In this document: piece after piece, positions 17,738 through 33,106 of the stretch
Layout of the letters: each line of letters opens with the position of its first letter
Position numbering within the stretch: position 1 is the first letter of the stretch
From: Micromonospora sp. WMMA1363
GTDB lineage: Bacteria > Actinomycetota > Actinomycetes > Mycobacteriales > Micromonosporaceae
NCBI RefSeq assembly: GCF_030345795.1
Contig: NZ_JAUALB010000001.1
Coordinates: 1,669,001-1,733,000 of the forward strand
DNA length: 64,000 nucleotides
Reading direction: 5' to 3'
Translations under genes and position numbers: made by a program
The notes under the pieces: generated by a model
Database searches by the model: none
Told to the model about the DNA's origin: nothing
What the model saw: the letters and a program-made list of their open reading frames with translations, nothing else

Positions 17738-19206
17738 CACGGGCACGGCAAAGTCGGAGAGTGCTCGTGTGAGGACTTTGTGTTGTGGTCCAGAGTGGAT
17801 TTGACGGGGCGGGCACGGCTCCGGTGATCTTGAGGTTGTCTACGCCTTCGGATCACCCTGTGGAGTACCGTGCCCGCGCCTGCATCATTGCTGATCAACG
17901 CTGTCCAAGACCAGCCGGACGAGCAGACACGACCGGTCCTGTTGGGCCGTAACAGGCAGGAAAGCCTGGTCGCGGCGCTGTCGGAGGTTTCTGATCCGCG
18001 GGACGCGCGAGGGATCCGGCATCGGTTGCCGACGGTGGTCGGGTTGGCCCTGGCGGCGGTGCTGGCCGGCAATACGTCGGTGTACGCGATCGGGCAGTGG
18101 ATCGCCGGGTGTTCACAGAAGACCCTGAAGGTGTTCGGCGCCCGGGTGGCTCCGGCGACCGGCCGGTATGTCGGTCCGGATGAGAAGACGGTGCGCGGGT
18201 TGTGCGCCCGGCTCGACGGTGACGTGCTGGACGCGGTGATGGGTCGGTGGCTGCAGCGGCGTGCCCTGGCGGCGCAGCGGGCGAAGGCGCGGACCGGGGT
18301 ACGGCCCCCGCGAGGTCGTAAGGCCCGTCGCCGGGCCAAGGCCGCTGGCCAGCGCCGCTGGCGGGCCAGTACACGCGGTCGGCACCGGCCGCGGCTGATC
18401 CAGGTCGCGGTGGACGGCAAGACCAGCCGCGGTGCGAAGAGCGCCGGCAACCCGGCGCCGCACCTGCTCGCCGCGTTGTCATGCGTGGGGGTGGTACTCG
18501 CCCAGCGCCAGGTCGACGGCAAAAGCAATGAGATCACCGCGTTCGTACCGCTGTTGACGCCCCTCGAGCTGGCCGGCCAGGTGGTGACGGCCGACGCGAT
18601 GCAGACGCAGCGTAAGCATGCCCGATGGCTGCGCCAGGTCAAGGACGCGCACTTCATCTTCCCGGTGCTGGACAACCAGCCCACCCTGTTCGACCGGCTC
18701 GACGCTCTGGACTGGGCCGGGGTGCCGGTCACCGCGTGGAGCGTGGACGACGACCGGGGCCGGCACGAGCGACGCACCATCCAGGTCATACCCGCTCCGC
18801 CCGAGGTGAACTTCCCGCACGTCGCGCAGGTGTTCCTGATCGAACGGACCGTCACCGTCAAAGGCAAGACCAGCTACCAGGCGATGCTGTATGTCACCAG
18901 CCTCACCGCCGAGCAGGCCGACCCCGCTGACCTGCTCGCGTACGTGCGCCAACACTGGGGAATCGAGGTTCTGCACTGGGTGAGGGATGTGACCCTCGGC
19001 GAGGACGCCTCCCGGGTCCGGACCGGTAACACGCCACGCGTCATGGCAACCCTACGAAACGTAGTGGTCAGCCTGCTCAGAATCCACGACACCACCAACA
19101 TCGCCGCCGCGCTGCGATACAACGCCCGCACGAACCGCCGGATCCTCAAACTCCTGGACCTTCTACCAGCCTAAACACCCCACCCGCCGACTTTGCCGTG
19201 CCCGTG
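17738..19206 (+). mobile_element. ISAs1-family insertion sequence nested in copy A
   Basis: 1469 bp with perfect 20-bp terminal inverted repeats (CACGGGCACGGCAAAGTCGG at the left). An 11-bp direct repeat CCACCACACCC flanks it at 17727-17737 and 19207-19217; the uninterrupted copy B has this sequence once. One transposase gene on the plus strand, opposite to its host IS. Confidence 0.93.
17870..19174 (+). CDS. ISAs1-family transposase
   Basis: 434 residues, GTG start at 17870. Family landmarks: N-terminal DUF4338-like part '[20 protein letters not shown]' (about residues 41-60), first Asp in [14 protein letters not shown], second Asp in '[14 protein letters not shown]', and the C-terminal '[20 protein letters not shown]' with the catalytic Glu. 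Intact from end to end and fully inside the inverted repeats, so it may still be active. Confidence 0.92.
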
Positions 19207-19407: not shown

Positions 19408-20544
19408 TCAGAGGGCCACCTGCTCGTCGACGCCCAGCACAGGCCCACCCTGCGGGTCGAGCCCGGGGAAGTCGACCGGGTCGAATCCCGCACCGAGTCC
19501 ACCGTTGTCAACGTTGGCATCGATGTCGACGTCACCGCCGATGCTGGTGTTCACGCTGTCGTCATTGTTGATCGAGTTGTCCGAGCTATCGTTGTTCGAG
19601 TTGTTGACCGAGTTGTCGACATCGTTCTCGGTGATGACATCGTTCTCGGTGTTGACATTGTTCTCGGACGTGTTCTCGACGGACTGGTCGTTGTTGGAGT
19701 CGTTGATCGAGTTGTCCCGCGACAGGTCAGAGTCGCTGACCGAGTTGTCGATCGAGTTGGACGACTGGTCCTGGACACCCGATCCGAAGTTCAGGTTCGC
19801 GAGGTCGTTGCGCTCACCAAAGTCGACATTGCCGTCGCCGACCGTGTTCCCCTCACCGACCACGTTGCCGTCACCGAAGGTGTTGTCACCATCGCCGACA
19901 ACCCCGCTGTTTTCGCCGGTGTTGACGTTGTCCACGCCGCCTTCGGCAAGGACGGCACCGTCGCCGGTGTTGGCCTGACCGTCATTGTCACCGCCGATGG
20001 CCTGGGCGCCGGCACCCGTGGCCGCGTTGACGTCGCCCTCACCCGTGTTGACGACGTTGCCGTCACCCGTGGTGGCGACGCTCTCGATGTCAACGTCACC
20101 GTCCACGTCACCGTCCACATCCACGTCCACCGAGTTGTCGATGTTCGTCGACTGGTCGACGAAACTCGTCGACTGGTCGACGTTCTGGTGCACGACGGTG
20201 ACCAACTCGGTGACGGTCTGCACGATCTGCTCCAGCGGCGGCTGCCCGCCGCCCGCCGCCTCCCCGCCACCGCCCGACTCCTGCTCCCCGCCACCGCCCG
20301 GCTCCTGCTTCCCGCCGCCGAACGCGAACTGCGCAACCGCGTCCTTGGTCTCCGGCGGCAGCGTCGACTCCTGAGCGACGACCGCGGCGACCTGGGCCAC
20401 GTTGACGCCCGAGAGGTCGGCGTCGGTGATGCCCTCCGCGGCGAGCACACCCTCCGGGTCGGCCGCGAAGTTCTGCGCGGCTTCACGGTCATTGAAGATC
20501 TTGGCGAAGAAATCCCGGAAAAGCTCAGTCACGTCGATGCTCAT
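19408..20544 (-). CDS. iniB: IniB-like protein with Asn/Asp/Gly-rich repeat domain
   Basis: 378 residues. Residues 1-75 match the IniB N-terminal domain (FRDFFAKIFNDREAAQNFAA, 'DPEGVLAAEGITDADLSGVN'). A Gly/Pro linker and a helix (LEQIVQTVTELVTVVHQNV) follow, then about 250 residues of short imperfect repeats: first Gly/Asn-rich (VVNTGEGDVN, 'DGNVVGEGNTVGDGN'), then Asn/Asp/Ser-rich (SVNNSNNDSSDNSINND). It is very acidic with no membrane segment. The ATG at 20544 follows AAGGAG by nine bases. In mycobacteria iniB is the first gene of the isoniazid-inducible iniBAC operon; its function there is still unclear. Here it heads a cluster containing both GTPase genes. An IS sits right at the stop codon (TGA lies within the 5-bp target duplication), so the protein is intact but its terminator is displaced. 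Confidence 0.75.
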   Translation of the reverse strand: MSIDVTELFRDFFAKIFNDREAAQNFAADPEGVLAAEGITDADLSGVNVAQVAAVVAQESTLPPETKDAVAQFAFGGGKQEPGGGGEQESGGGGEAAGGGQPPLEQIVQTVTELVTVVHQNVDQSTSFVDQSTNIDNSVDVDVDGDVDGDVDIESVATTGDGNVVNTGEGDVNAATGAGAQAIGGDNDGQANTGDGAVLAEGGVDNVNTGENSGVVGDGDNTFGDGNVVGEGNTVGDGNVDFGERNDLANLNFGSGVQDQSSNSIDNSVSDSDLSRDNSINDSNNDQSVENTSENNVNTENDVITENDVDNSVNNSNNDSSDNSINNDDSVNTSIGGDVDIDANVDNGGLGAGFDPVDFPGLDPQGGPVLGVDEQVAL

Positions 20545-20563
20545 CGTCTTGCTCCTTGGTCTA

Positions 20564-20585
20564 GCCGGGCCGCCTTCGGCCCGGC
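20564..20585 (-). promoter_or_regulatory. Hairpin in the 5' leader of the iniB-like mRNA
   Basis: A perfect nine-bp stem (20564-20572 with 20577-20585) and CCTT/AAGG loop lies 20-41 bases upstream of the start codon, just before the ribosome-binding site. It could stabilise the message or regulate translation. Confidence 0.45.
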
Positions 20586-20702
20586 GTGTCCCTACCCTGC
20601 CGCTGGAGTCCCAGCGAAGACATCGGGGAAACCCCCACTGACGCGCCCCCGCAATAGGGGTTGATGCCAGCCAGTTGGCCAACCGGGTAACGCGGTCGCG
20701 GC

Positions 20703-23072
20703 TCAGCCGACGACGACCCCCGGGTGTTCCCGCAGCGCGGCGAGGAATTCGGCACGGTTGGACACGCCCAACTTGGTCCGCATCCGCGCCGCATGGTGCT
20801 CAACCGTCTTCGGCGACAGATACAGCTGAGACCCGATCTCCCGATGCGTGCGCCCCTCGAGCACCAGGCGGCCGACCTCCATCTCCCGATCGGACAGCAC
20901 TCCAGCTTGCCCACTCTCCTCGCCCCCACCGAGCTCCGCAGTGGACAGCTCCCGCGCGCGTTCCAGCAGCCGACGTGCCGCCGCCGCGTCCGTTGTGCGG
21001 ATCGCCGCCTGGCCCACCAACCGCGAGGCCTCCCAGGGCAGGTAGTTCGCCGCCAGGTCCTGCGCGACCAAGCAGACCGTGTCGACGTCCACCGTGCCCG
21101 CCAGCACGTCGGCCCAGGCCGCCGCGGCGGCTCCCTGCGCGCGCTGGCGCGGTCCAGCGAGGGCGACTGCCGTGGTCAGATCGCAGGCAACCGCGGCGGC
21201 CGCCGTCGCGTCCTCGAGGGTGACGGCGACCTGCAACCGGATCCAGCCCACCGCGACAACCCACGCCGGCGGATGTCCGGCGCGTGCAACGAGATCGTCG
21301 AATGCGTCAAGCACCGGCTCGGCCCGAACCAGGCGGCGTAGCCGCGCCGCCGCCACCACGAGTTCCTCCAGGACCTCGACCGCGAACAGATCAACCGCGC
21401 GTCGGGCCAGCTGCGTCTCCACTGCGGTCCAGGCCTCGCGCGTCCGGGCCACGTCACCACTACGGCGGGCCACCCCGGCTGCGAGTGCGGCGGTGAGCAG
21501 CCGGTCCCGGGCCGGCTGGTTTGACGTGGTGGCCAGCTGCGCCACCGCGGTGTCGTAGCGGCCGGCACGCATCCGGGTGAACGCCAGCAACAACTGGTGC
21601 CGCTGGACGGTCGCCGGTCCGCCGACATCCGCGGCCAAACCGGCGACGAGCAGCTGCTCCGCGGTGGACACATCCCCGGTCAACCCGGCGATGAGGGCGC
21701 CGAGCGCGTGCGGCGAGTCGGGCAGCACCACCTCGGGTGGTGTGCGCTGGGCGGCCTCGGCGGACTCGATCAGCAGGGTCAACGCGGCGTCCGGCTCGCC
21801 GAGGCTCGCCGCGGCCTCGGCCAGCCGCGCCAGGGCCTCCGGCGTCCGCCCACCCGGCTCGGCTCGGGACCGCCGCGCGGCATCGCGGGCCCGGTCAAGA
21901 TGCCCGGTCGCTGCCCAGGCGACGGCGGCCAGGGCCGGGGCGGGACGTTCGGCGGTTGTCAGTGCCTCTGCCGCGCGGTCCCACCGCCCCTGCTGAGCGG
22001 CGACTGCCGCGCCCACGATGGACAGGCGCGTCGGCTCGCCGCTGACCCCGGTCAGATCCACCGGCATACCGAGCTGCGTGGCCGCCTCGGCCCGGCCCAC
22101 GCCGACGGCCGCCGGTTCCGCGCCCGCCTCGGCAGCAGCGTCGTACCAGGACACCGCGGCGCCGGGGTTGCGGAATCGCAACCGATCAGCGGCCTGTGCG
22201 TAGGCGACCGCCGCCACGGGCGTCAGAGCACGGGCGTGCCGCAGCTGGACCGCGGCGAGCAAAGGGTCAGCGCCCGAGTCCAGGAGCGCCGTGGCCACGC
22301 GGTCGTGCAGCTGTCGCCGCGCCGCCAGTGGCAGGTCGGTCAGGATCGCCTCGGCGACGGCCGGCACCAACGAATCCGAACCGGGGGCGATCATGCCGAG
22401 TTCCTGCAGGACACCGGTGGTATCGGCGACCACCTGGACGGCGACCCCGGCCGCCGTGGCGAGCACGGAGTCCGGCACGTCCAGCAGTAGGGCGAGCACC
22501 TGCGCCACGGCCGCGCCCTCGGCAGGCAGGCCGGCGAGGCGGCGCTGTATCCGGGCCCGCAACGCGGCAGGCACCGGCCACACAGACCGCGCGGCGGCCA
22601 GGGAGGCGGCTACCGCGGCCATCCCGTGGGAGGCGGCGAGTACCTCCTCGACCGTGACGTCGCCGGGCTCGACCCCGCCCGCCTCAGCGACAACCGTGCT
22701 GATACCGGCGGCGTCCAGCGGTCCGAGCTGGTCGACCGTGCCGGCCGCCGCGACGACCTCGTCCAAGTCGGCCAGCTCCACGGCGTGGATGATCGGCCGT
22801 CGCGCGAGAAGCATCGCCTGGCCGGCGCGGGCGGCCGCGGCCAGGGCCCGCCACGTGGCCGGTTCCCCGTGGTGTGCGTCGTCGACGATCACCACGGCAT
22901 CCTCCGCCCGGGCCTCGACCAGTACCCGGTCGAGGTCCTCGCCGCTACTCGGCAGCGTCACCCAGCGCACGGAACGCTCGAGCGCGACCGCGAGATCGCG
23001 CATCCGCCGGGTCCGGCCGGCACCGTCGACACCCACGACCACGGTCGTGGCAGAGGCGCCCGGGGTGGCCAT
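20703..23072 (-). CDS. Large LuxR-family ATPase regulator, IniR-like
   Basis: 789 residues. N-terminal AAA-like part with a degenerate Walker A (GVDGAGRTRR, residues 14-23; the usual Lys is replaced by Arg) and a Walker B-like AVVIVDDAHH; a long alanine-rich TPR-like middle; C-terminal LuxR helix-turn-helix (LSDREMEVGRLVLEGRTHRE and KTVEHHAARMRTKLGVSNRA, about residues 726-780). ATG 23072 follows AGGAGG. The layout (MalT/LAL type, about 800 residues, next to iniB) matches IniR (Rv0339c), the reported regulator of iniBAC in Mycobacterium tuberculosis, and the gene is likewise adjacent to an iniB-like gene. It probably controls this cluster. Nucleotide binding may be weak given the altered P-loop. 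Confidence 0.75.
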   Translation of the reverse strand: MATPGASATTVVVGVDGAGRTRRMRDLAVALERSVRWVTLPSSGEDLDRVLVEARAEDAVVIVDDAHHGEPATWRALAAAARAGQAMLLARRPIIHAVELADLDEVVAAAGTVDQLGPLDAAGISTVVAEAGGVEPGDVTVEEVLAASHGMAAVAASLAAARSVWPVPAALRARIQRRLAGLPAEGAAVAQVLALLLDVPDSVLATAAGVAVQVVADTTGVLQELGMIAPGSDSLVPAVAEAILTDLPLAARRQLHDRVATALLDSGADPLLAAVQLRHARALTPVAAVAYAQAADRLRFRNPGAAVSWYDAAAEAGAEPAAVGVGRAEAATQLGMPVDLTGVSGEPTRLSIVGAAVAAQQGRWDRAAEALTTAERPAPALAAVAWAATGHLDRARDAARRSRAEPGGRTPEALARLAEAAASLGEPDAALTLLIESAEAAQRTPPEVVLPDSPHALGALIAGLTGDVSTAEQLLVAGLAADVGGPATVQRHQLLLAFTRMRAGRYDTAVAQLATTSNQPARDRLLTAALAAGVARRSGDVARTREAWTAVETQLARRAVDLFAVEVLEELVVAAARLRRLVRAEPVLDAFDDLVARAGHPPAWVVAVGWIRLQVAVTLEDATAAAAVACDLTTAVALAGPRQRAQGAAAAAWADVLAGTVDVDTVCLVAQDLAANYLPWEASRLVGQAAIRTTDAAAARRLLERARELSTAELGGGEESGQAGVLSDREMEVGRLVLEGRTHREIGSQLYLSPKTVEHHAARMRTKLGVSNRAEFLAALREHPGVVVG

Positions 23073-23267
23073 CCATCCTCCTACTCGTCGGGACGGCAGG
23101 TATCGGCGACCGACGCAGACGCCGGCCTGGACCGTTGGGAACGGGCGGACGATCAGCGCGGCGGCCGGCCGACCCGCGACTGGTGCCCGGCGGGCGCCCG
23201 TCGCGATCGGGAAACGCCCGCGGGAGACGACCGCCTGCGGCCACCGCAACCGGCAGTCGCCCATCGG

Positions 23268-25193
23268 TCAGCCCTCGGTGATCGGCACGCAGTTACCCGT
23301 CTCGTACCCGCCGTTGGTGTCCTGGACCAACCCGTGCCAGTCGCTCGCGATCCGCACACACACCCGGTCCGGCAGCGTCTGCCCGGCCGGTGCGTACGCC
23401 GCGATCGCCTCCCACTTGCCGTCGCCCCACCTGGCGACGGACGGGAGCTTGTCCTCGACGAACCACACTCCGTGCGCGGCGGCGTGGGAACCCATGAGAG
23501 CCGGGTCCGGGCTGGTGCCGTCACTGCCGAACAGGTGCAGGTGGAAGCCGCCGTCGACGTCGAGGACCGTGCCCTTCGGGACACCGACGTCGCCCCGGAT
23601 AGTAAGCGTGGAACCGTCGAAGACCGCAGCGGTCAGGCATGCCCACCGCTTGTTGGCCGTGATCGCCTCGGGGCACTGCGTGTCGGACGGGGGCACCGCC
23701 TCGCTGGATGCCGTCGGCACCGACGCCGCCGCGGTCTGGGCCACCGGATCTGCATCGTCACGGCCGAACATCGCGTATCCGGCACCAGCAAGCGCCAGCA
23801 CCAAGACGAGGGCCGAAGCGCCGACGGCCAGCGGGCGCGACCGGCCCGGTTTGGCCGACGGCTGCTTCGTGCTCGGCGTGCGGTCGGAGCCCGCCTGGTC
23901 GGTGTGACCACCCCCGCCGCCGACGGTGGCCACCCCGCGAACCGATTGCGCGGCTGCGGCTCCGCCCCCGAGCGTCGGCATGGGCGCCGTCACCGAGCTG
24001 CCGGCCGGCCGCCCCGCCGGGGCCGGGGCCGGGGCCGGGGCCGGGGCCGGGGCCGGAACGCTCGCCTCGGAAACGCCCACTGGCGCCTTCCGGAGCGTCG
24101 CCGCCGGCGCCGGGCTGCCCGCTTTCCGGGCCGCGTCGCCCGCAGCGAGCCAGGCCGCGCCGAGCGCGACCGCGTGCTTCGGGTGGGTGTCCACCGCCAG
24201 CGGGCGGCCCAGCTCGGCGCCGACCAGCTGTGCCACCAGCGGCATCCGGGACGAGCCGCCGACCAGCAGGACCGAGTGCAGGTCCTCCGGCTTGACCCCG
24301 GCCGAGGCCAGCGCCCGGCGCATCGCCTCGATCGAGTCGTGGAGCGCCGGGCGCACCATCGCCTCCAGCTCCGCACGGGTCAGCCGGATCTCGGTGGACA
24401 GGTTCGGCAGCAACACCGGGATAGACACGTCGGTGTCAGCAGACAGCGCCTCCTTGGCCTCGACGCACTCGCCACGCAACCGCGCCACGGCCGCGATCGC
24501 GGCCGGATCGTCGTCGTCCAGCTCCGCGACCTTCCCGCCGATCACGGCCGCCACGTGTGCGAACACAGCCGCATCGAAGTCGATGCCGCCGAGCCGCTCG
24601 ATCCCCTCGGGCTGCCCGAGGATCTCGAACCCGTCCCCGGTACGCCTCAGCACCGCCGCGTCGAACGTGCCGCCGCCCAGATCGTAGACGGCCACGACGG
24701 CCCCCGGCTCGACCCGCTCCTGCTGGGCGTACGAGACGGCCGCGGCGACCGGCTCGGTGGTGTACTCGACCGGCTGCTCGATGCCGGCCAGCCGCACCGC
24801 CTGGCGCAGCATGTCGGTCTTGTACGGTCCCCAGTTCGCCGGGTACGACAGGCAGACCCTGGCCGGCGCCTCGCCCTCGCGTTGGATCACTCCGTCGACG
24901 ACCGAGCGGAGTAGCCGGGCCATCAACGCCTCGGCCGAGTACGGCACCCCGCCCAACAGCAGCGGTGTGGTGTCGCCGAACCTCCGCTTGAACTCCCGCG
25001 CTACTCGGCGTGGCTCGGTCAGCCCGCGCCTGCTGGCGGTCTCCCCGACCAGGAAGGTCTCGTCGTCACGCAGCAACACCACCGACGGGATCGCGGCGGC
25101 GCGCGTGCCCAGCGAAGCGATCTCCGCCCGCCCATCCCGCCACGTCGCCGCGGCGGTGTAGGTGGTTCCCAGGTCAATTCCCAACACGTACAT
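23268..25193 (-). CDS. Membrane-anchored Hsp70-like protein with extracytoplasmic C-terminal domain
   Basis: 641 residues. Residues 1-350 are an Hsp70-type ATPase domain (phosphate-1 LGIDLGTTYTA, phosphate-2 VYDLGGGTFDAAVL, adenosine LLVGGSSRMP). The normal substrate-binding domain and lid are missing. Instead there is a Pro/Ala repeat linker (about residues 379-392), a single membrane segment (about 454-477, PLAVGASALVLVLALAGAG) and a 160-residue outside domain with three cysteines. The sequence predicts ATPase inside and sensor or adaptor domain outside. ATG 25193 follows GGAG and puts the DLGTT motif at the usual position. It lies between the IniR-like regulator and the divergent second iniB-like gene, so it belongs to the ini-like cluster. 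Actinobacteria have other Hsp70-TM proteins of unknown function; substrate and partner are not readable. Confidence 0.85.
   Translation of the reverse strand: MYVLGIDLGTTYTAAATWRDGRAEIASLGTRAAAIPSVVLLRDDETFLVGETASRRGLTEPRRVAREFKRRFGDTTPLLLGGVPYSAEALMARLLRSVVDGVIQREGEAPARVCLSYPANWGPYKTDMLRQAVRLAGIEQPVEYTTEPVAAAVSYAQQERVEPGAVVAVYDLGGGTFDAAVLRRTGDGFEILGQPEGIERLGGIDFDAAVFAHVAAVIGGKVAELDDDDPAAIAAVARLRGECVEAKEALSADTDVSIPVLLPNLSTEIRLTRAELEAMVRPALHDSIEAMRRALASAGVKPEDLHSVLLVGGSSRMPLVAQLVGAELGRPLAVDTHPKHAVALGAAWLAAGDAARKAGSPAPAATLRKAPVGVSEASVPAPAPAPAPAPAPAGRPAGSSVTAPMPTLGGGAAAAQSVRGVATVGGGGGHTDQAGSDRTPSTKQPSAKPGRSRPLAVGASALVLVLALAGAGYAMFGRDDADPVAQTAAASVPTASSEAVPPSDTQCPEAITANKRWACLTAAVFDGSTLTIRGDVGVPKGTVLDVDGGFHLHLFGSDGTSPDPALMGSHAAAHGVWFVEDKLPSVARWGDGKWEAIAAYAPAGQTLPDRVCVRIASDWHGLVQDTNGGYETGNCVPITEG
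24017..24056. repeat. Hexanucleotide tandem repeat (CCGGGG, about 6.7 units)
   Basis: Six full CCGGGG units plus CCGG, all in frame and encoding the Pro-Ala repeat linker of the Hsp70-like protein. A second run of the same hexamer is at 43589-43624. Prone to slippage and to G-quadruplex formation. Confidence 0.95.
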
Positions 25194-25389
25194 CTCAACT
25201 CCAGCGCTTGCGCTTCGCGGTTCCAACAGCCACGCTCGGGTCTCGCGGCCTGACATCGCCGGTGCCTCGCGGGCTCCGTCCACAGCTCGTGCGACGCGGC
25301 CGGCTACCTCCGCCATCCACGACGATTAGGGGATGGGTCGGGGATCTCCCCGCTGTGGCATCGGCGGCACGATCCCTACAGTGGGCGGC

Positions 25390-26043
25390 ATGGACTCGGG
25401 CAGACTTCTCGACGCGCTCGGTGACCTCGCCGGCAGCGAGGACGCCCGGCAGAAGTACGCCGCCGACCCGGACGGCTTCCTCGGCGGCTACGGGCACTCG
25501 GGGTTGCCCACCGACCTCGTCGCCGAGGCCGTCTCCAACTACGCTGACGTGGCGGGTCCGGCTCTCGCGGAACACATCGCCCCGATGATCATGGTCTACC
25601 GTGGTTTCGGCGACCCGGACGCCACCGGCGATCCCGATGCCGGTCTGGACGTTCTGGCTACCGCACCGACCGCCGACGGCGGCGGCGACCCGGCGAACCT
25701 GGACGGCGATCTCGCTGCCGGATCCGGCGACCGGGCCGCGGGAGGGGAGGCCGCCACCGGCGGCGACCCGTTGCCCGAGTCGGCGACCGGTCCCGGCGAC
25801 CTGCTCGACCTGGACTTCGGCTTCGGTGCGGAGGCGGAGGCGGAGGCGGAGGCCGAACCTGAGTTCGGTCTGGACGCCGACCCGGCGGGCACCGGGTCGG
25901 CGGGGTCGGCGGCGATGGACACGGAGCCGCTCGGCGACCCCGATGAGACCGGCCTCCCGCAGCACGACCCGGCCGGCGTCCACGACGACCAGCCGCCGGA
26001 CGAGCGGTGGCCGGATGACGCGTTCGGCCTGGACAGCCTCTGA
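25390..26043 (+). CDS. Second IniB-like acidic protein
   Basis: 217 residues. Residues 1-65 resemble the IniB N-terminal domain (LLDALGDLAGSEDARQKYAA, 'DPDGFLGGYGHSGLPTDLV'). The rest is Asp/Gly/Ala/Glu-rich low complexity, including an (EA)n run encoded by GGAGGC repeats (25828-25854). No membrane segment. ATG 25390 is used because homology begins there; no strong ribosome site is seen and a TACAGT -10-like element lies nine bases before the start, so the mRNA may be leaderless. It diverges from the Hsp70-like gene and converges on the iniC-like gene, ending six bases from it. Possibly a paralogue of the 378-residue IniB-like protein with a different tail. Confidence 0.65.
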   Translation: MDSGRLLDALGDLAGSEDARQKYAADPDGFLGGYGHSGLPTDLVAEAVSNYADVAGPALAEHIAPMIMVYRGFGDPDATGDPDAGLDVLATAPTADGGGDPANLDGDLAAGSGDRAAGGEAATGGDPLPESATGPGDLLDLDFGFGAEAEAEAEAEPEFGLDADPAGTGSAGSAAMDTEPLGDPDETGLPQHDPAGVHDDQPPDERWPDDAFGLDSL

Positions 26044-26048
26044 CCCCT

Positions 26049-27545
26049 TCATTCGCCCCGGCCGCTTCTGGTCAGAAGAGCGAGTATCCCCTCGCAGGAT
26101 CGGACCGCGACCCGGCCGGCGATCGCCATCTCGTGGCTGGTCATCGGGTTCTCGGTCCGCACCTGCCAACGCTCCAGCGCGGCGTGGACCGCCGACGTCA
26201 GTTCCTGCCTCGACGCGTCCGGCTCCAGACCCACCCGCAGGTGCGGCGCGGCGCCCCGGCCCCCGATGAGACGCTCCAGGTCGTCGACGACGGCGGGCTT
26301 GCCAGTGACCCAGCCGGCTCGCACCGACGTCAGCACCCGCAGCTCGCTGAAGGGATGCGCGCCGGCCAGGATCGCCTCCACCTCGGCCGCGACCGCCTCG
26401 CTACCCGGCACCGGACGGGTCCGGGTGAGGGCGTCGACGGCCAGCAGCGCCGACCGGCTCTTCAGCACGTCGCGCCGCTCGAAGAACAGTGCGCCGAGCA
26501 CCGCCCTGAGCTCGGCGAGGCCGCTTCGCTCCGACAACTCGCGGGCCATCTCGGCGGCGGTCCCCACGACCTTCTGCCGCACCATCGCCGCGGCCAGTCG
26601 GACGCCGAACAGACCGAACCGTTCCAACAGCAGGTCTCGCTCGATCGAGGTCAGGCCCAGCTCAGGCATCGACTCTCGGAACCGGTCGGCGGACAGCAGC
26701 AGCACCTCGGCGTCCTTGGGCGCCAGCTCCGCGACACGCCGCAGCTGGGCCATCTCGGTCTCGGTGAGCGTAGCCGCGGTCTCCGCGAGCAGACCGGCCA
26801 CGGGCACGACCGTCTGCACCATCCGCCGCATTCTCGGATCCATCGCCATGCGCGACGCGATGCGGCGTGCCGACGCCATCGAGTCGATCCGGCCGACACC
26901 GATCTCGTCGGCGCGGGACAGGACGCCGATCGCGTTGACCGGATTGGGCCGCGACACCTCACCGTCGTGGAACGCCTTCAGGAACTCCACGTCGGAGGCG
27001 TGAACGTGCCGCATGAGATAGAGCACCGCGTCGGCCGGCGTCGCCTCCTCGTCGGCGGCGAGCAGGTCCCAGGACCGCCGGGACACCCGCTCGGTCAGGG
27101 AGCCGATGCCGGGCGTGTCGATCAGGGTGGCGGTCCGCAGGGCCTGCGACGGCCAGGTCACGGTCAGTTGGTCGACGTCGTCCGGCGACCGGCCGCCGAG
27201 GTCGACCTCGATCGCGCCGTCGTCGCGCGTGAACCGCAGTTGCACCGGAGGCTGGTCGCCGACGTGCGCGGTGACCCGGTAGGTGTGGCCATCGGCGTAC
27301 CACGTCACGATGCGGGTGCACTCACCCTCGTCGGTGGGCGCCAGCCGCTCCCCCACCAGCGCGTTGAGCAGTGTGGACTTACCGGCCTTCACCCGGCCGG
27401 CGATGGCCACGCGCAGCGGCTCGTCGAGACGGTCACGGATCGCGACCAGCTGCGGCTCGTCCGCGGTCCCGCGATAGACGCCGATCGCGTGGCTCAGTGC
27501 GGCCCGGGTCCGGTCCAGCAGGTCCATCGGCGTCGGCGTGGTCAT
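26049..27545 (-). CDS. iniC: Dynamin-like GTPase, IniC-like
   Basis: 498 residues, close to mycobacterial IniC (493). GTPase domain at the N-terminus: P-loop GRVKAGKST (residues 50-58), G3 DTPGIGS, and a G4-like 'VLSRADEIG'. The rest is helical with no obvious membrane paddle. Bacterial dynamin-like proteins remodel or protect membranes, and often work as pairs of unequal subunits. The ATG at 27545 overlaps the stop of the iniA-like gene by four bases (ATGA), so the two are translationally coupled. The neighbourhood supports an IniA/IniC-type pair. Confidence 0.82.
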   Translation of the reverse strand: MTTPTPMDLLDRTRAALSHAIGVYRGTADEPQLVAIRDRLDEPLRVAIAGRVKAGKSTLLNALVGERLAPTDEGECTRIVTWYADGHTYRVTAHVGDQPPVQLRFTRDDGAIEVDLGGRSPDDVDQLTVTWPSQALRTATLIDTPGIGSLTERVSRRSWDLLAADEEATPADAVLYLMRHVHASDVEFLKAFHDGEVSRPNPVNAIGVLSRADEIGVGRIDSMASARRIASRMAMDPRMRRMVQTVVPVAGLLAETAATLTETEMAQLRRVAELAPKDAEVLLLSADRFRESMPELGLTSIERDLLLERFGLFGVRLAAAMVRQKVVGTAAEMARELSERSGLAELRAVLGALFFERRDVLKSRSALLAVDALTRTRPVPGSEAVAAEVEAILAGAHPFSELRVLTSVRAGWVTGKPAVVDDLERLIGGRGAAPHLRVGLEPDASRQELTSAVHAALERWQVRTENPMTSHEMAIAGRVAVRSCEGILALLTRSGRGE

Positions 27546-29353
27546 GCCGCACCCTCCGCGATCGCACCGGCCATCTGCCGCACCTTCGCCAGCCGAGCCA
27601 GCTCCGCGTCCAGGTCGCGCAGGCGCGCCGCCCGGTTCGCCTTGGTGGTCTTCGCCCCGTCGGTGGCGGATTTCAACGCCTCGGCGGTGGACTTGTTGAG
27701 CTCCTCGGCCAGGGCGGCGTAATGGTCGCGTAGCTGCCGCTGAATCCGGCGCAGCGTGTCCCGGGAGTCCTTGCCGACGACGAAGTTGACCTCGTCGCAG
27801 TAACGCCGGACCGAGTTCTTCGCCTGGCTGCGCCGGTTCTGCAGCTGGCGCTTCTTCTCGTCGCGCAGGCCCTTGTGCCCCATGATGAGCCCGATGCCGA
27901 GCCCGATCGGTCCCAACCCCAGGCCCAGCAGGCTGCCGAGCATCGTGAACATCAGCCCGCCGGTGTACGCGTTCTTCAACGCCACCATGGCCTGCTTTCC
28001 GACCGTCATCTTGGTCAGGTCGAGGTCCTTGTGCTCGCCGGCCCGGGCCGCCACCCGGCTCGGGTCGTAGACGGCGAGCTGGTCGAGCGCCGCGCCGGAA
28101 GCCTCCCGGAAGTGCTCGGCCACCTCCCGGCTGAGTTCCTCGGCCCGGTCGCGCAGCAGCGTGTAGTTCGCCAGTACCTCGGCGGAGGTCCGCGACTGCA
28201 ACCACGTCTCGACCGTGTCCCAGGAGTCGGCCGGGTCGATGTCGGCGATCACGTCGTCCGAGTCCTCGACCACCTTCCGGATCCGGCTACGCAGGTCGTG
28301 GTCAACATCGGCGGTCAGGTCGGCGATACCGTCGTTGAGGGTCTGGCTCCACCGGGCTGCGGCACCACGCAGGGCCTCGGTCCGGGCACGGGTGGCGGCG
28401 AGGTCGTCCACGATTCGCTGCGCGGCGTCCGGGTCAGCCAGCGCCGCCCGTTCGGCCTGGAACTGGGCACTGATCTGGTCCATGGCACTCACGACGTCCG
28501 CCGCGCACTCGGTGGCAAGCCGCTTCGCCGCCGGTGCGCCGACGCGGTCGGAGACGAACGCGACCAACTCGCCGAAGCCGGATTCGCGGTTGAGGTCCCG
28601 GTCTCCGACGGCTACGGCGCGAGAACGCAGCGCCGAGGACACCGCCATCACCGGGAATTCGCCGCCCACATGTCCCTGGTTGAGGTCACGGACCTTGCGC
28701 CAGGCCGGGTAGAAGTCGGTCTTGGTGATCACGCAGGCGACGGTGGGACACATCTCCCGCACCCGGTGCAGGAACTCGACCTCGTTGCGGGTCAGCTCCT
28801 GCGACGCGTCGGTGACGAAGACGACCGCGTTGGCCATCGAGGTCGCGGCCAGGCTGGCCGTCGCGTGGGTGGAGTTGAGGCCACCCACGCCTGGCGTGTC
28901 GACCAGGACCAGGCCACCGGCGAGCAGCTTGCGGGGCAGGCTCACCTCTACCGCGGCCAACGGCTCGGGCCCGTGCCCGGCGTCGCTCTCCACCACGTGC
29001 GCGCGGATGTCCTCCAGCGCGATCGGATCCCGTGTTGGCGGCTCACCCGCGCGCAGCAACACCGCGGCCGCCTGCTCGCCATAGCGCACCTGGGTGGGCA
29101 CCGCCGTGGCCAGATCGTCGTTCACCGGGCAGAGATTGGTGCCGACCAGCGCGTTCACCAGGGAACTCTTGCCCTTCTTGAACTCGCCGACCACCACCAC
29201 GTGCACGTCGGTCGCGTGCAGCCGGCGCCGGGCATGCCGCAGTCGGGCGGCGAGGTCGGCGCGTTGGTAAGCCTCACAGGCGCGCAGTGCAAGATCCACC
29301 AGCTGCGCCGTCTTCTCGATCACGCCGGTCGTTTCCGTCTCAGATGCGGTCAT
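27542..29353 (-). CDS. iniA: Dynamin-like GTPase, IniA-like
   Basis: 603 residues (mycobacterial IniA is about 640). P-loop GEFKKGKSS (residues 56-64), switch Thr region 'ATAVPTQVRYG', G3 DTPGVGG, G4 TKTD. A helical neck and trunk follow, with a hydrophobic paddle-like segment at about residues 463-491 (GGLMFTMLGSLLGLGLGPIG) that should insert in the inner membrane. Mycobacterial IniA has been shown to be a membrane-fission dynamin and is linked to isoniazid and ethambutol tolerance. It is coupled to the iniC-like gene by ATGA overlap. Likely role: membrane maintenance under envelope stress. Confidence 0.85.
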   Translation of the reverse strand: MTASETETTGVIEKTAQLVDLALRACEAYQRADLAARLRHARRRLHATDVHVVVVGEFKKGKSSLVNALVGTNLCPVNDDLATAVPTQVRYGEQAAAVLLRAGEPPTRDPIALEDIRAHVVESDAGHGPEPLAAVEVSLPRKLLAGGLVLVDTPGVGGLNSTHATASLAATSMANAVVFVTDASQELTRNEVEFLHRVREMCPTVACVITKTDFYPAWRKVRDLNQGHVGGEFPVMAVSSALRSRAVAVGDRDLNRESGFGELVAFVSDRVGAPAAKRLATECAADVVSAMDQISAQFQAERAALADPDAAQRIVDDLAATRARTEALRGAAARWSQTLNDGIADLTADVDHDLRSRIRKVVEDSDDVIADIDPADSWDTVETWLQSRTSAEVLANYTLLRDRAEELSREVAEHFREASGAALDQLAVYDPSRVAARAGEHKDLDLTKMTVGKQAMVALKNAYTGGLMFTMLGSLLGLGLGPIGLGIGLIMGHKGLRDEKKRQLQNRRSQAKNSVRRYCDEVNFVVGKDSRDTLRRIQRQLRDHYAALAEELNKSTAEALKSATDGAKTTKANRAARLRDLDAELARLAKVRQMAGAIAEGAA

Positions 29354-29457
29354 CGTCGTGCTCTCCTAGCGCCGCCGCTCCTGCCGCGACGGCGAACGAC
29401 CCGGTAGCGGGGCCGCCCGGATCAGGGATCTGCGCGGCCCCACGACGCCAGACCCGC

Positions 29458-30042
29458 TCAGGCGAGGCGGATGTTGCCGTCCTCGACGACCAGGTCAAGC
29501 GGGTCGAGGCTGCGCCGTGCCGGCCCGCGGGCCACCGAACCGTCGGCCACCGAGAACCTGCTGCCATGGCAGGGACAGTTGATCGTTCCGCTGGACACCT
29601 CGGCCACGCTGCAGCCTTGGTGCGTACAGATCGCCGAGAACCCCCGGAACGTGCCCGCCTGTGGCTGCGTGATGACCAGCTTGGCGTCGGCGAGAATCGC
29701 ACCGCCGCCGACCGGGATGTCAGCTGTCCGCGCCAGGACCTGCCCGCCACCGGCGTCATTTCCGGTTCCCGTGCCGTCATCGCCACCACCGGTGTTTCCA
29801 CCACCGTCGCCCGCGCCACCGCCAGCCGGTGCGGAACTGTCGTACGTGGCGCAACCGCTCAGGATGATCGCCCCGGTGGCACCTACCCCGGCCAGCAGCC
29901 GTCGCCGCGACGAACACGCCACCGGCCGCACGACGTCGCCCACGTCGGACAGGGCAGGACGGTTGGCCCCGCCCGCGTCCAGGCCACCACGGCGGTGCGC
30001 CACGCCACCGGACATCCCGGCGGCCTTCCTCAACTCGGTCAC
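29458..30042 (-). CDS. Tat-exported Rieske [2Fe-2S] lipoprotein
   Basis: 194 residues, GTG start at 30042 overlapping the previous stop by four bases. A Tat-type twin-arginine region (SSRRRLLAGVG, residues 44-54) precedes a lipobox (LSGC, Cys64), so it is probably folded in the cytoplasm, exported and lipid-anchored. A Gly/Asp-rich linker (70-100) leads to the Rieske fold: CTHQGC (C139, H141, C144) and CPCHGSRF (C156, C158, H159), giving the cluster ligands and the disulfide pair. It probably passes electrons to or from the adjacent b-type membrane protein. It is not a bc1-complex Rieske (no N-terminal triple helix). Confidence 0.88.
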   Translation of the reverse strand: MTELRKAAGMSGGVAHRRGGLDAGGANRPALSDVGDVVRPVACSSRRRLLAGVGATGAIILSGCATYDSSAPAGGGAGDGGGNTGGGDDGTGTGNDAGGGQVLARTADIPVGGGAILADAKLVITQPQAGTFRGFSAICTHQGCSVAEVSSGTINCPCHGSRFSVADGSVARGPARRSLDPLDLVVEDGNIRLA

Positions 30043-30635
30043 AGCTTGACTCCAAACGTGGTGAAGTACCAGAACGACGACGTGAGCCACAGGCCGATCA
30101 GGGCGGTGAACACGGCACCGCCCAGCACCGGCAGGACCCAGCCGCGCAGGCCAGATTTCGGCAGAGCGAGCATCTTGACGGTGAAGGCGCCGAAGAAGAA
30201 ACAGCCGAGCAGTCCGTGCACGACCACTCGGGTGTCGTAGGTGGCGAACCCGAGCGCGTACAGGCAGTGCATCGCCACCGGGACCGCGAGCAGGAAGGCA
30301 AGTCGCCCCGACCACCGATGCACGGGCGCGGACCAAGCCGGTGCCGACGAGCCGAACGTGCCCCACATCGACAGCGCGGACAGCAGTTGGATCACCGCGA
30401 GCACAGCCGCGCCCGTGGCGAGCCACACCTTCACCGTCAGTGGACTGGAGAACCCGGCCACGTTCACCGCGACGCCCGTCGGCTCGTGCAGGCTGCCGTA
30501 GACCCCGAGGGTCACCGCGACCGCGGAACCGATCAGGAACGGGACGCCGAGCAGAGCCAGCTGACTCGCGCCGGTGGCTCGGCCGGCGTCCCCGTCGCCA
30601 GCCTTCGTCACCGTCTCGCCGGCGGGATTGGTCAC
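30039..30635 (-). CDS. Multi-pass membrane protein, b561/ferric-reductase-like (DUF6529-type)
   Basis: 198 residues with five to six hydrophobic segments. Histidines placed near helix ends (VHRWSGRLAF, AMHCLYALGF, VVHGLLGCFF) suggest bis-His haem b ligation as in cytochrome b561-like proteins. GTG 30635 follows AAGGAG and overlaps the previous stop by four bases; its own stop overlaps the Rieske gene start. Context suggests it exchanges electrons with the Rieske lipoprotein across the membrane. The DUF assignment is from memory of similar neighbourhoods, not a search. Confidence 0.65.
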   Translation of the reverse strand: MTNPAGETVTKAGDGDAGRATGASQLALLGVPFLIGSAVAVTLGVYGSLHEPTGVAVNVAGFSSPLTVKVWLATGAAVLAVIQLLSALSMWGTFGSSAPAWSAPVHRWSGRLAFLLAVPVAMHCLYALGFATYDTRVVVHGLLGCFFFGAFTVKMLALPKSGLRGWVLPVLGGAVFTALIGLWLTSSFWYFTTFGVKL

Positions 30636-31276
30636 GACAGCTCCTTGGGACGGGTAGGGGTGAGGGCGGTGCCACTGACGGTGACCGTGCCGGTATCGGT
30701 GTCCAGGGGCGGCGCGGGTCGGGCGGCGCCGTCCACGGTGACCAGGCCGACCTGGGTGCCGTCGGCGAGTACGATCCAGCCGCCCTCGACCTGCGCGCCG
30801 CGCGCCGTCGCGGTGGCCCGGTAGAGCCCGGACGGTGCCGTGACCGTCTTCACGGTGAATGGCAGGGTCTTGTTGTCGACCTTGATTTGGCCGGTGGCCC
30901 GCCCCTCGCCGAACGTGCCACTGATCGTCCCACCGTCGCGGCCTGCCAGGGTGAGTCGCCCGCCCGCGGCGGTGCCCTGGAGCCATGCCTCGACCGCGAC
31001 ACCGTCGCACAGATAGGCCACCGCCACGCCGTCCTGCACGGAGATGGCGAGTGTGCCGGACGCCACGTGTCCCGCCCACACCGCGTTGACCGGTGCCTCC
31101 GTCGGAGACGGGGAAGGTGACGGCGGTTCGGACGCCGGCGTGGCGGCAGTCGTGGCGGGGGCGGCGGCCGGGACCGGCGGTTCGTCGTTCCCGCCGGTGG
31201 CGTTCACGCTCGCCGCCAGCAGGATCACGCCAAGTGTCGACCCGCCGAGCAGAGTAAGCAGTGGAGTGCGTTTCAC
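30632..31276 (-). CDS. Secreted or N-terminally anchored protein of unknown function
   Basis: 214 residues. Residues 1-24 form a signal or anchor segment (LLTLLGGSTLGVILLAASV), then a Pro/Ala/Thr/Ser-rich linker (33-60), then a beta-rich domain (GHVASGTLAISVQDG, 'GTISGTFGEGRATGQIKVDN'). The first gene of a three-gene overlapping operon with the b-type membrane protein and the Rieske lipoprotein; probably an outside partner of them. Family not recognised. Confidence 0.65.
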   Translation of the reverse strand: MKRTPLLTLLGGSTLGVILLAASVNATGGNDEPPVPAAAPATTAATPASEPPSPSPSPTEAPVNAVWAGHVASGTLAISVQDGVAVAYLCDGVAVEAWLQGTAAGGRLTLAGRDGGTISGTFGEGRATGQIKVDNKTLPFTVKTVTAPSGLYRATATARGAQVEGGWIVLADGTQVGLVTVDGAARPAPPLDTDTGTVTVSGTALTPTRPKELS

Positions 31277-31369: not shown

Positions 31370-33106
31370 GTGCGGCGACAGCTAACCGGGCCTCCCACCT
31401 CGCCGGCCGAGCAGCTGCGGCCTCCGCAGCCGGCCCGCCGCCGATCGGTACGCCAGATCGCCGTACCGGTACGCAGCCTGATCTGGGTCATCCACATGGC
31501 CATGCCGCTGCTGGGGTTGTGGCTGCTGCTGGCCCGCCCACAGATCGACGTACATTGGCACGATCCGATCGGCCACTTCTATCTGATCGCCACGGTGGCA
31601 CTGGTCAACCTCGTGCTTGGCGCCCTGGTCAGCGCAGCGGCCCATCGCCGCAACGATGCTCGGCTGTTCCTGGTCTCGTTGGCGTTCCTGGCCAGCGCCG
31701 GGTTCCTCATGTTGCACGCATTGGCCACTCCGCGGGTGCTCGTCGACGATCCGAATCTCGGATTCGAGCTGGCACAGCCGGTGGGGCTCGCCTTCGCCGC
31801 CGTGTTCGCGCTGGCCTCCTCGCTGCCACTGGACGGCCCGCGCGGCGCAGCGATCCTGCGCGCGCGACACGTCCTCTGGAGTGAACTGGCGATCTTCCTC
31901 ACCATCTGGGGTGTGGCGTCGCTGCTGGGCCTGCCCCCGCTGTCCGATCGGCCGAGCACAGCCGCCGAGGATGCCTGGCTGACCTGGCTGGCACCGTTGT
32001 CGGTGGCGCTGCTGACAGTCGCCGCGGTTCGCTACTTCCTGCTGTACCGCCGCCAGCCCACGGCCGTGCTGATCAGCGTCATCACGGCGTTCGTGCTGCT
32101 GGCCGAGGCGATGGTGACGGTGGTACTGGCCGACAAGTGGGCGTTGTCCTGGTGGGAGTGGCATGTGCTGCTGGCGCTGGCCTTCGGCTTCGTCGCCTAC
32201 AGCGCGTTCGTACAGTACCGCCGCGAGGGGTCATCGGCCGGGCTGTTCGACGGGATCGCCCTACACCAGACCATCAGGGCGATTCGGGCCGAGTACGGTG
32301 CCGCCTTGGAGGAACTCGTGTCAGCCCTGGCCGAGCGGGAGCGCGACGGCACGGGCGACGTCGGCCCGGTCGCGGCCGGTCTGGCGGACCGGTTCGGGCT
32401 CACCGAACGGCAGACCGCGGTACTGGAGCGTGCCGCGCAGGCGCTGTCCGCCGAGCGGGAGGTCAGCCGGCGATTGAGTACCTTGTTCCGGCACTACCTG
32501 TCGCCGGATGTCGCAGCGGCGCTGATCGCCGACCCGGACCAGGCGGCGCTGGGGGGCTCGGTCGTCGAGGTGACGGCGCTCTTCGCTGACCTGCGCGGCT
32601 TCACCACGTTCTCCGAAGCGGCGGAGCCGGCGGAGATCGTCGCCATGCTGAACCGTTACCACGGCGTGGCGGTGCCGTGCATCCTCGACAACGGCGGCAC
32701 AGTGGTGCAGTTCGTCGGCGACGCGTTGCTCGCCCTCTTCAACGCGCCAGCTCGGCAGCCCGACCACGCGCTTCGGGCGGTACGCGCGGCCACCCAGATG
32801 CAGCACGCCGTGAACGAGATCGCCACCGGCCACCCGGGCTGGCCCCGGTTCCGCGTCGGCGTGAACACGGGCCCGGCACTGGTCGGCAACATCGGCAGCG
32901 AACAACTGCGCGGGTTCAACGCCATGGGCGATGCGGTCAACGTGGCCGCCCGGCTGCAAACCATGGCCGAGCCAGGGCAGATCGTCATCGGTGAGTCGAC
33001 CTGGCGGTCGACCAACACCCTGGTCCCGGTCGATCCGCTCGGGGACCTCGCGGTCAAGGGTCGAGTCGGTCTGGTCAGGGCGTATGCGGTGCGGGTGGAT
33101 CAGTGA
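31370..33106 (+). CDS. Membrane-anchored class III nucleotide cyclase with Gln/Asn substrate pair
   Basis: 578 residues, GTG start at 31370. Residues 30-285 contain about seven membrane segments; a coiled-coil-like linker (310-370) leads to the cyclase domain (about 395-560). Metal-binding Asp residues are present (LFADLRGFTTFSE and VGDALLALF), as are the transition-state Asn/Arg (VNVAARL). The two purine-selecting residues are unusual: Q447 replaces the normal Lys (VVQFVGD) and N517 replaces the normal Asp (FNAMGD). A Gln-Asn pair is known from M. tuberculosis Rv0386, which makes cAMP with relaxed specificity. The stop overlaps the start of a Crp-type gene by four bases, implying a dedicated signal-receptor pair. 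It is divergent from the secreted-protein operon at 31276. Confidence 0.88.
   Translation: MRRQLTGPPTSPAEQLRPPQPARRRSVRQIAVPVRSLIWVIHMAMPLLGLWLLLARPQIDVHWHDPIGHFYLIATVALVNLVLGALVSAAAHRRNDARLFLVSLAFLASAGFLMLHALATPRVLVDDPNLGFELAQPVGLAFAAVFALASSLPLDGPRGAAILRARHVLWSELAIFLTIWGVASLLGLPPLSDRPSTAAEDAWLTWLAPLSVALLTVAAVRYFLLYRRQPTAVLISVITAFVLLAEAMVTVVLADKWALSWWEWHVLLALAFGFVAYSAFVQYRREGSSAGLFDGIALHQTIRAIRAEYGAALEELVSALAERERDGTGDVGPVAAGLADRFGLTERQTAVLERAAQALSAEREVSRRLSTLFRHYLSPDVAAALIADPDQAALGGSVVEVTALFADLRGFTTFSEAAEPAEIVAMLNRYHGVAVPCILDNGGTVVQFVGDALLALFNAPARQPDHALRAVRAATQMQHAVNEIATGHPGWPRFRVGVNTGPALVGNIGSEQLRGFNAMGDAVNVAARLQTMAEPGQIVIGESTWRSTNTLVPVDPLGDLAVKGRVGLVRAYAVRVDQ

Follow-up and report, generated by a model that had tools for sequence, protein, structure and literature searches.

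Organization of the locus

The window analyzed here, a stretch of 64,000 nucleotides from Micromonospora sp. WMMA1363, contains an ini-type locus in which two iniB-like genes, one iniR-like gene, and the gene of a membrane-anchored Hsp70-type ATPase lie together with the dynamin genes iniC and iniA. The minus strand carries, in this order, iniA, iniC, hsp70, the iniR-type gene, and iniB1, and iniB2 alone is encoded on the plus strand. In window coordinates, the components are:

19408 to 20544, minus strand, iniB1, IniB-like protein of 378 amino acids (open reading frame 19408 to 20682; likely start at 20544, with AAGGAG just upstream)
20703 to 23072, minus strand, iniR-like signal-transduction ATPase and LuxR-type regulator of 789 amino acids (open reading frame 20703 to 23264; likely start at 23072)
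23268 to 25193, minus strand, hsp70, transmembrane Hsp70-type ATPase of 641 amino acids (open reading frame 23268 to 25316; likely start at 25193)
Parts of hsp70, minus strand: nucleotide-binding domain (NBD), 24054 to 25193; low-complexity linker; transmembrane (TM) segment, about 23775 to 23831; outer beta domain, 23271 to 23681
25390 to 26043, plus strand, iniB2, second IniB-like protein of 217 amino acids (assigned from an IniB_NTERM match and family profile tests)
26049 to 27545, minus strand, iniC-like dynamin GTPase of 498 amino acids (Dynamin_N and IniC relatives)
27542 to 29353, minus strand, iniA-like dynamin GTPase of 603 amino acids (Dynamin_N and profile A2)

The iniA and iniC genes overlap by 4 bases, and iniB2 is convergent with iniC, its end lying five bases before that of iniC. 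All components named in an initial annotation of this DNA are present, with corrections to starts, strand, and range. The second IniB-like protein that it had proposed is among them; its match to IniB is weak, and its gene is on the plus strand and diverges from hsp70.

Dynamin_N is the best Pfam match of both GTPases (81.8 and 47.8 bits; cut-off 27). Profile A2, whose first row is the window IniA, retrieves M. smegmatis IniA (6J72) at 525 bits, which identifies an IniA-type dynamin. The adjoining gene encodes a second dynamin of the IniC type; the IniC profile scores mycobacterial-type pair loci at 623–678 bits, a profile built partly from those same loci, and the similarity of the window IniC to PDB entries is weak.

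Linkage of Hsp70 to the dynamin pair

Genomes were searched for IniA with profile A2, up to 20 kb were fetched around each match, and the neighboring genes were scored with Hsp70, IniA, IniC, and IniR profiles built from loci of the same analysis. Hsp70 counts exclude matches of at least 400 bits to DnaK, and a pair denotes an IniC within 3 kb of an IniA. In the class sample, IniA was found in 29 of 197 genomes at 33 places, which left 32 regions once the window's own place was excluded. Twenty-nine of these hold an iniA–iniC pair, and in 22 of the 29 an Hsp70 lies within 5 kb, with a predicted TM segment in 16 of the 22. IniR is present in the fetched region of 14 pairs, and none of the three unpaired IniA genes has an Hsp70. 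The chance expectation is 0.37 of 29, a rough value derived from match counts at E ≤ 1e-15, and the maximum reached in 200,000 simulations was 5. The linkage of Hsp70 and dynamins is thus far beyond chance. Canonical dnaK was seen within 6 kb of iniA or iniC in three class-sample genomes (L035, L042, and L045). An ordinary dnaK near iniBAC was considered as the cause of the linkage and rejected, the three such cases being excluded by their DnaK score.

The same association extends beyond the class. IniA occurs in 36 of the 396 genomes of the phylum sample; all 10 pairs outside the class have an Hsp70, in each case with a TM segment, and none of 16 weakly matching solitary dynamins has one, several of the 16 being on short contigs. 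Two Chloroflexota loci (Tepidiforma; L017 and L019) also carry an Hsp70. Within the family, where IniA was found in 106 of 200 genomes, all 30 places scoring at least 850 bits (the window's own excluded) and 30 of the 94 lower-scoring places were fetched. An Hsp70 was found within 5 kb of IniA or IniC in 29 of the 30 high-scoring loci, the single miss being a contig of 3.9 kb, and in 25 of the 30 lower-scoring ones. Eleven loci of the high-scoring group are rearranged, such that iniC lies 4.4–4.7 kb from iniA with iniR in between; all 11 retain IniC, and in every one hsp70 shares the strand of iniC at a distance of 67–109 bp. In the reverse direction, the window Hsp70 retrieved 17 loci, of which 15 have an IniA, an IniC, or both in the vicinity or fused to the Hsp70; of the other two, L012 has a weak IniC and L015 neither dynamin.

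Hsp70–dynamin fusions

In two loci (L018 and L020), a single open reading frame encodes an Hsp70 NBD and, after it, an entire IniA-type dynamin, a domain order checked with Pfam for L018. Among the best 120 of 1630 matches, 26 protein clusters (P0014–P0039, query included) cover 96–100% of the L018 frame. All 26 contain PF00012 and PF00350, their identity to the L018 frame is 39–100%, and some of their contigs are 0.9 and 3.8 Mb long. An assembly artifact was considered and rejected on the number of clusters and the length of these contigs. A motif search recovered DLGGGTFD in 23 and the GTPase P-loop in 22 of the 26, and the nine fusions placed in the tree form one clade (support 100/99). No TM segment separates the two domains in L018 and L020, and these proteins have no outer domain; the dynamin is therefore the partner that the NBD keeps. 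The fusions suggest that Hsp70 and dynamin work as one machine. Among the matches listed in literature searches, mainly of open-access papers, none was judged by title or abstract opening to concern an Hsp70–dynamin fusion or Hsp70 as a general ini component.

The initial annotation had viewed the cluster as one envelope-stress system, a view at odds with any rarity of the Hsp70 gene beside iniA and iniC in other genomes. The opposite of rarity was found, and the fusions, together with an upstream element common to the iniB genes and hsp70 that argues for their co-regulation (see below), add to the case. The Hsp70 very probably belongs to the ini system.

The Hsp70-type ATPase

The window protein matches Pfam HSP70 at 180 bits, and the matched stretches are confined to the ATPase domain. 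In comparison with DnaK, the catalytic motifs are intact (equivalents of GIDLGTT, E171, DLGGGTFD, and GGSSR), and the NBD residues that define an active Hsp70 ATPase are invariant across a 14-row alignment; the Salinispora homologue is 88% identical in this domain. Judged by these residues, the window Hsp70 is a catalytically intact version of something partly noted before. Neither a substrate-binding domain nor an interdomain linker was found, the Pfam match and the best PDB stretches displayed both stopping at the NBD. The Arg that makes the J-domain contact in DnaK has a counterpart in 12 of 58 family members and none in the window Hsp70. A Pfam HSP70 search of the window's own genome returned this gene and one other, of full-length dnaK type.

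The NBD is followed by a low-complexity stretch, one predicted TM segment, and 168 further residues. This outer module differs widely by lineage, being a small beta domain, propeller-like repeats, or, in mycobacterial types, a Ser/Thr/Pro-rich tail. The small beta domain with an HxH...TGNC motif is found in the window, Salinispora, Actinophytocola, Saccharothrix, Actinoplanes, Tepidiforma, and others. Its model is of fair quality, with a mean predicted local distance difference test (pLDDT) score of 82; a fold search with the model gave no PDB match at E ≤ 0.001, and a Pfam search gave no convincing family. A protein with no HSP70 domain (P0139) has a hydrophobic stretch (identified by eye), two PASTA domains, and then the same small outer domain. 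Because P0139 places this domain after a hydrophobic stretch and PASTA domains, a location outside the cell is supported. In a distinct group of IniA/IniC pairs (L054, L055, and L057), the Hsp70-type neighbors have no predicted TM segment, and several bear WD40-like C-terminal repeats (by eye).

IniR and the mycobacterial-type loci

The window regulator matches NCBIfam IniR (NF038181) over nearly its full length at 191 bits and has a GerE helix-turn-helix; the equivalog cut-off is 750 bits, which makes it a homologue and not an equivalog by the NCBIfam rule. In the IniR clade of the window, the Walker A Lys is replaced by Arg in all seven proteins with a readable N-terminus (window, L004, L005, L007, L010, L011, and L029). 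The Lys is kept in 14 other IniR proteins, and L062 and L065 have no clear motif.

IniR scores above the NCBI cut-off in 6 of the 197 genomes, and Hsp70-like TM genes are present at every one of their six ini loci, one or two per locus and nine altogether. These mycobacterial-type loci (L040–L044 and L047) each combine Hsp70-like genes with two IniB-type genes, and one set of recurrent neighbors spans six loci, L040–L044 and L065. All nine Hsp70s have lost the catalytic motifs, DLGGGTFD being changed to DFGGSGTS and similar; Pfam HSP70 scores of 54–82 bits (cut-off 20.6) were obtained for two of the nine (L040, L041-type loci), one in L043, and one L036 protein. Degenerate motifs also occur in L036, L039, L045, and L062, and the tree position of these fast-evolving Hsp70s is unsure.

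In mycobacteria, IniR activates iniBAC, the promoter induced most strongly by ethambutol and isoniazid, and ini responds to cell-wall inhibitors (Boot 2017, PMC5760070, cited here and below from part of its text). The same source describes iniB* and reports that a dnaK-like gene follows iniR in M. smegmatis. The six loci agree, and the earlier assertion that mycobacterial iniBAC has neither the Hsp70 nor a second IniB is thereby contradicted.

The IniB proteins

NCBIfam IniB_NTERM matches iniB1 at 32.9 bits and iniB2 at 16.6 bits (E 0.0054), both below the cut-off of 40, and a Pfam search gave no convincing family for the IniB heads. The iniB1 protein consists of an N-terminal helical domain and a long Asn/Asp/Gly-rich tail. 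The head is helical in the model, in which pLDDT exceeds 50 only at about residues 1–78 and 102–121 (mean 46.6), and on this very low model confidence most of the protein beyond the head is probably disordered.

When both window heads seed the profile, it collects 50 proteins, one or two at each locus that has any, mycobacterial types included; it finds none in L012–L020, L035, L037, L038, L046, L048–L060, L071, and L073. A profile built without the iniB2 type still recovers seven of nine iniB2-type proteins, the window iniB2 at E 6e-4. With a profile from mycobacterial types alone, one of the nine is recovered, not that of the window, and the window iniB1 is recovered as well. On these profile tests, iniB2 is likely a member of the IniB family, if a distant one. 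Divergent from hsp70, it is the positional counterpart of mycobacterial iniB*.

Upstream elements

The regions upstream of the window genes contain the following elements:

20623 to 20636, minus strand, ini palindrome GGGGGTTTCCCCGA, candidate IniR operator, 92 bp upstream of iniB1, its position kept in relatives
20654 to 20660, minus strand, half-site CCCCTAT upstream of the iniB1 palindrome, singled out by its place in an ini upstream region
25326 to 25332, minus strand, half-site CCCCTAA in the hsp70/iniB2 divergent region, the sole CCCCTAA in the window
25338 to 25351, minus strand, ini palindrome GGGGAGATCCCCGA between hsp70 and iniB2, its position kept in relatives
29422 to 29433, minus strand, imperfect half-site GCAGATCCCTGA, about 70–80 bp upstream of iniA, kept in two Salinispora loci

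The palindrome, GGGGN4CCCCGA, recurs upstream of genes in the window and in two Salinispora loci, these three being the discovery set, and its two exact window copies lie upstream of iniB1 and between hsp70 and iniB2. The shorter form GGGGN4CCCC is found within 200 bp upstream of all 17 window-type iniB genes, six of which come from the three discovery loci, at 11.8 versus 0.053 per kb elsewhere in the loci. It sits mostly at −90 to −96 in iniB1 types and at −42 to −49 in iniB2 types. Overall, 25 of the 50 iniB genes have it. Among the highest-scoring family loci, some of which may come from species sampled before, it precedes 31 of 42 iniB genes (3.9 versus 0.045 per kb); few of the lower-scoring family loci have it (2 of the 21 that carry IniB). 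All 12 mycobacterial-type iniB genes have CCCCTAA upstream (9.6 versus 0.034 per kb), a motif first spotted by eye in those same regions.

Genome-wide, the longer palindrome pattern matches 22 places versus 12 for a reversed control; among the 22, matches of the half-site pair patterns fall on just the two ini places. These pair patterns alone are not enriched in the genome (13 versus 30 and 2 versus 1 for reversed controls). The arrangement CCCCGA-N5-CCCCTAA at hsp70/iniB2 is one of two genome matches of its pair pattern (reversed control, 1), and two further genomic copies of the palindrome have no CCCCTA nearby. From the common upstream element, co-regulation of the iniB genes and hsp70 is argued, and the palindrome with its CCCCTAA half-site is a candidate IniR operator, at which binding by IniR is inferred from sequence. 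The common boxes also lend indirect support to a possible induction by cell-wall inhibitors through IniR. The part of Boot 2017 considered gives no IniR motif, and the best 12 of 8,324 matches of a text search for such a motif include no paper on IniR.

Flanking genes

The cluster had at first been drawn to position 31276. Its core stands, and positions 29458–31276 hold Rieske, DUF6529, and secreted-looking genes, with no recurrent neighbors among them; the Rieske end upstream of iniA is kept in two Salinispora loci. At the left border lie two DDE transposase genes on opposite strands (16393–19174). Positions 31370–33774 hold an adenylate/guanylate cyclase gene and then the gene of a Crp-type regulator, which also turns up close to the ini loci L004, L007, and L057. 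No other recurrent partner beside the core is widespread across lineages, the largest sets comprising seven loci of one lineage.

Discussion

On balance, we favor an IniR-controlled envelope-stress module in which the Hsp70-type ATPase acts directly on the dynamins. IniR, a MalT-like protein, would activate the iniB genes, hsp70–iniR, and perhaps iniA through boxes with CCCC(T/G)A half-sites, and IniA and IniC would remodel the inner membrane. Lacking a substrate-binding domain, the Hsp70 is not a general chaperone; its ATP cycle at the inner face may recruit, load, or dismantle an IniA/IniC assembly. For direct action of Hsp70 on IniA and IniC, taken by itself and with both contact and direction being conjectural, we judge the case evenly poised. 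The membrane anchor and the variable outer domain would put the Hsp70 in the envelope, where it may report on envelope state; that the outer domain acts as such a sensor is a tentative proposal, and we lean toward doubting it. Coupling of ATP use inside the cell to an outside domain, as the initial annotation proposed, would be less general than coupling to the dynamins, because the outer module varies by lineage and is replaced by a dynamin in the fusions. The IniB proteins, with a small helical head and a long disordered tail, would be the output with the clearest tie to the boxes; they may serve as adaptors or fillers.

More broadly, and with somewhat less assurance than we attach to an even case, ini may at its root be a two-motor machine in which an Hsp70-type ATPase powers the heterotypic dynamin pair of the inner membrane or resets it. 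Such a machine would be old in Actinomycetota and present also in Chloroflexota; it would have taken a one-polypeptide form in one lineage including Ilumatobacteraceae and would have decayed to a pseudo-Hsp70 form in mycobacterial types, the setting of the earliest work on ini genes. The window locus itself probably arose by rearrangement of a layout with iniR-iniB-iniA-iniC plus iniB*/hsp70, of the kind present at L010.

Several observations weigh against a dedicated Hsp70–dynamin module under IniR control. No Hsp70 lies within 5 kb of 7 of the 29 class-sample pairs (L035, L046, L050–L053, and L060); a relative was located about 9–14 kb away in L046, L050, and L053, and L035 stands at a contig start, with an IniR–Hsp70 pair (L062) near the end of another contig of the same genome. 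Five of the 22 linked Hsp70s (L054, L055, and L057–L059) fall with DnaK in the tree, mostly without a TM segment. Five of the 30 lower-scoring family loci lack an Hsp70, and two of the remaining 25 have weak matches of 48 and 54 bits. By hand count, 9 of the 22 top-scoring class-sample matches to Hsp70 have no IniA within 15 kb, and the Hsp70 family is therefore wider than ini and has other uses too. An active Hsp70 is not essential for ini, because the mycobacterial-type Hsp70s are degenerate and Boot 2017, in the part considered, names the dnaK-like gene for M. smegmatis only. The fusion locus L018 has no IniR, and neither fusion (L018 or L020) has a box upstream. Within the window, the palindrome is not above chance in number (2 versus 0.90 expected, with 19 of 100 shuffles reaching 2) and, with one mismatch, was found 20 times versus 26 expected; CCCCTAW was found twice versus 3.2 expected, both times in ini upstream regions, so that only the places speak, and the iniA half-site pattern is likewise not above chance.

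Three other explanations were considered. The Hsp70 might serve IniR and not the dynamins, holding or releasing the regulator at the membrane and relaying an outside signal, as MalK does for MalT, a comparison drawn in Boot 2017. This arrangement would suit the outer domains, which vary as sensors may, and the gene order at 10 of the 29 loci with both genes, the window included, where hsp70 immediately precedes iniR on a shared strand (gap −73 to 21 bp). However, Hsp70 is also found where the region fetched around a pair shows no IniR (L037, L038, L064, L071, L073, and others), and the fusions join Hsp70 to the dynamin; we regard this role as unlikely. Less likely still is a neighborhood devoid of joint function, in which an old Hsp70-type gene is held near ini by shared regulation and acts elsewhere. 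The breadth of the Hsp70 family beyond ini and the degenerate Hsp70s of mycobacterial types would fit such a history; the fusion to an IniA-type dynamin in 26 clusters does not, nor does the persistence of hsp70 beside iniC in 11 of 11 rearranged loci.

We give little credence to an anti-phage or conflict system composed of a GTPase pair and an Hsp70, like the DO-GTPase/HSP70 neighborhoods of Kaur 2020 (PMC7159879, likewise cited from part of its text). PADLOC matches both GTPases to LeoA/LeoBC (best 73 bits), and Kaur 2020 reports HSP70 proteins without a peptide-binding domain in such neighborhoods. The window GTPases, by contrast, are IniA-family dynamins, and the word dynamin is absent from the main text of PMC7159879; moreover, no effector family is shared across lineages in the neighborhood of the core, and mycobacterial ini is responsive to cell-wall inhibitors (PMC5760070).

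If the older form of ini does include an Hsp70-type ATPase in working order with the dynamins as its target, a missing energy-coupling part of iniBAC would become open to study in harmless soil and marine actinomycetes and in single-chain fusions, and the conserved box would offer a testable candidate operator for IniR. An Hsp70 motor joined to a dynamin would, if true, be a new kind of membrane-remodeling machine.

Comparison with known systems

Other bacterial dynamin-like proteins, such as LeoABC (PMC4159319) and a dynamin-like pair (PMC6104087), resemble the window proteins in being dynamin-like GTPases and differ in that the openings of their abstracts mention no Hsp70-type partner. The DO-GTPase systems share paired GTPases beside an HSP70 without a peptide-binding domain, and they too occur in actinobacteria; by description, DO-GTPases are a separate TRAFAC family with GAP1 partners (Kaur 2020). 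With DnaK and other Hsp70 chaperones the window protein shares an NBD with phosphate and adenosine motifs, whereas its TM segment and outer domain, and the failure to find a substrate-binding domain, set it apart; the DnaK of the same genome matches at only 131 bits.

The closest counterpart is the mycobacterial iniR/iniB*/iniBAC locus (Boot 2017), which has in common with the window the IniA and IniC dynamins, IniR, an IniB family with a second small member, a dnaK-like gene beside iniR (reported for M. smegmatis), and CCCCTAA boxes ahead of iniB genes. The two differ in gene order, in the Walker A Arg of the window-clade IniR, and in the form of the boxes, which in the window are GGGGN4CCCC palindromes; and the Hsp70 ATPase motifs that are lost in the mycobacterial type are kept in the window.

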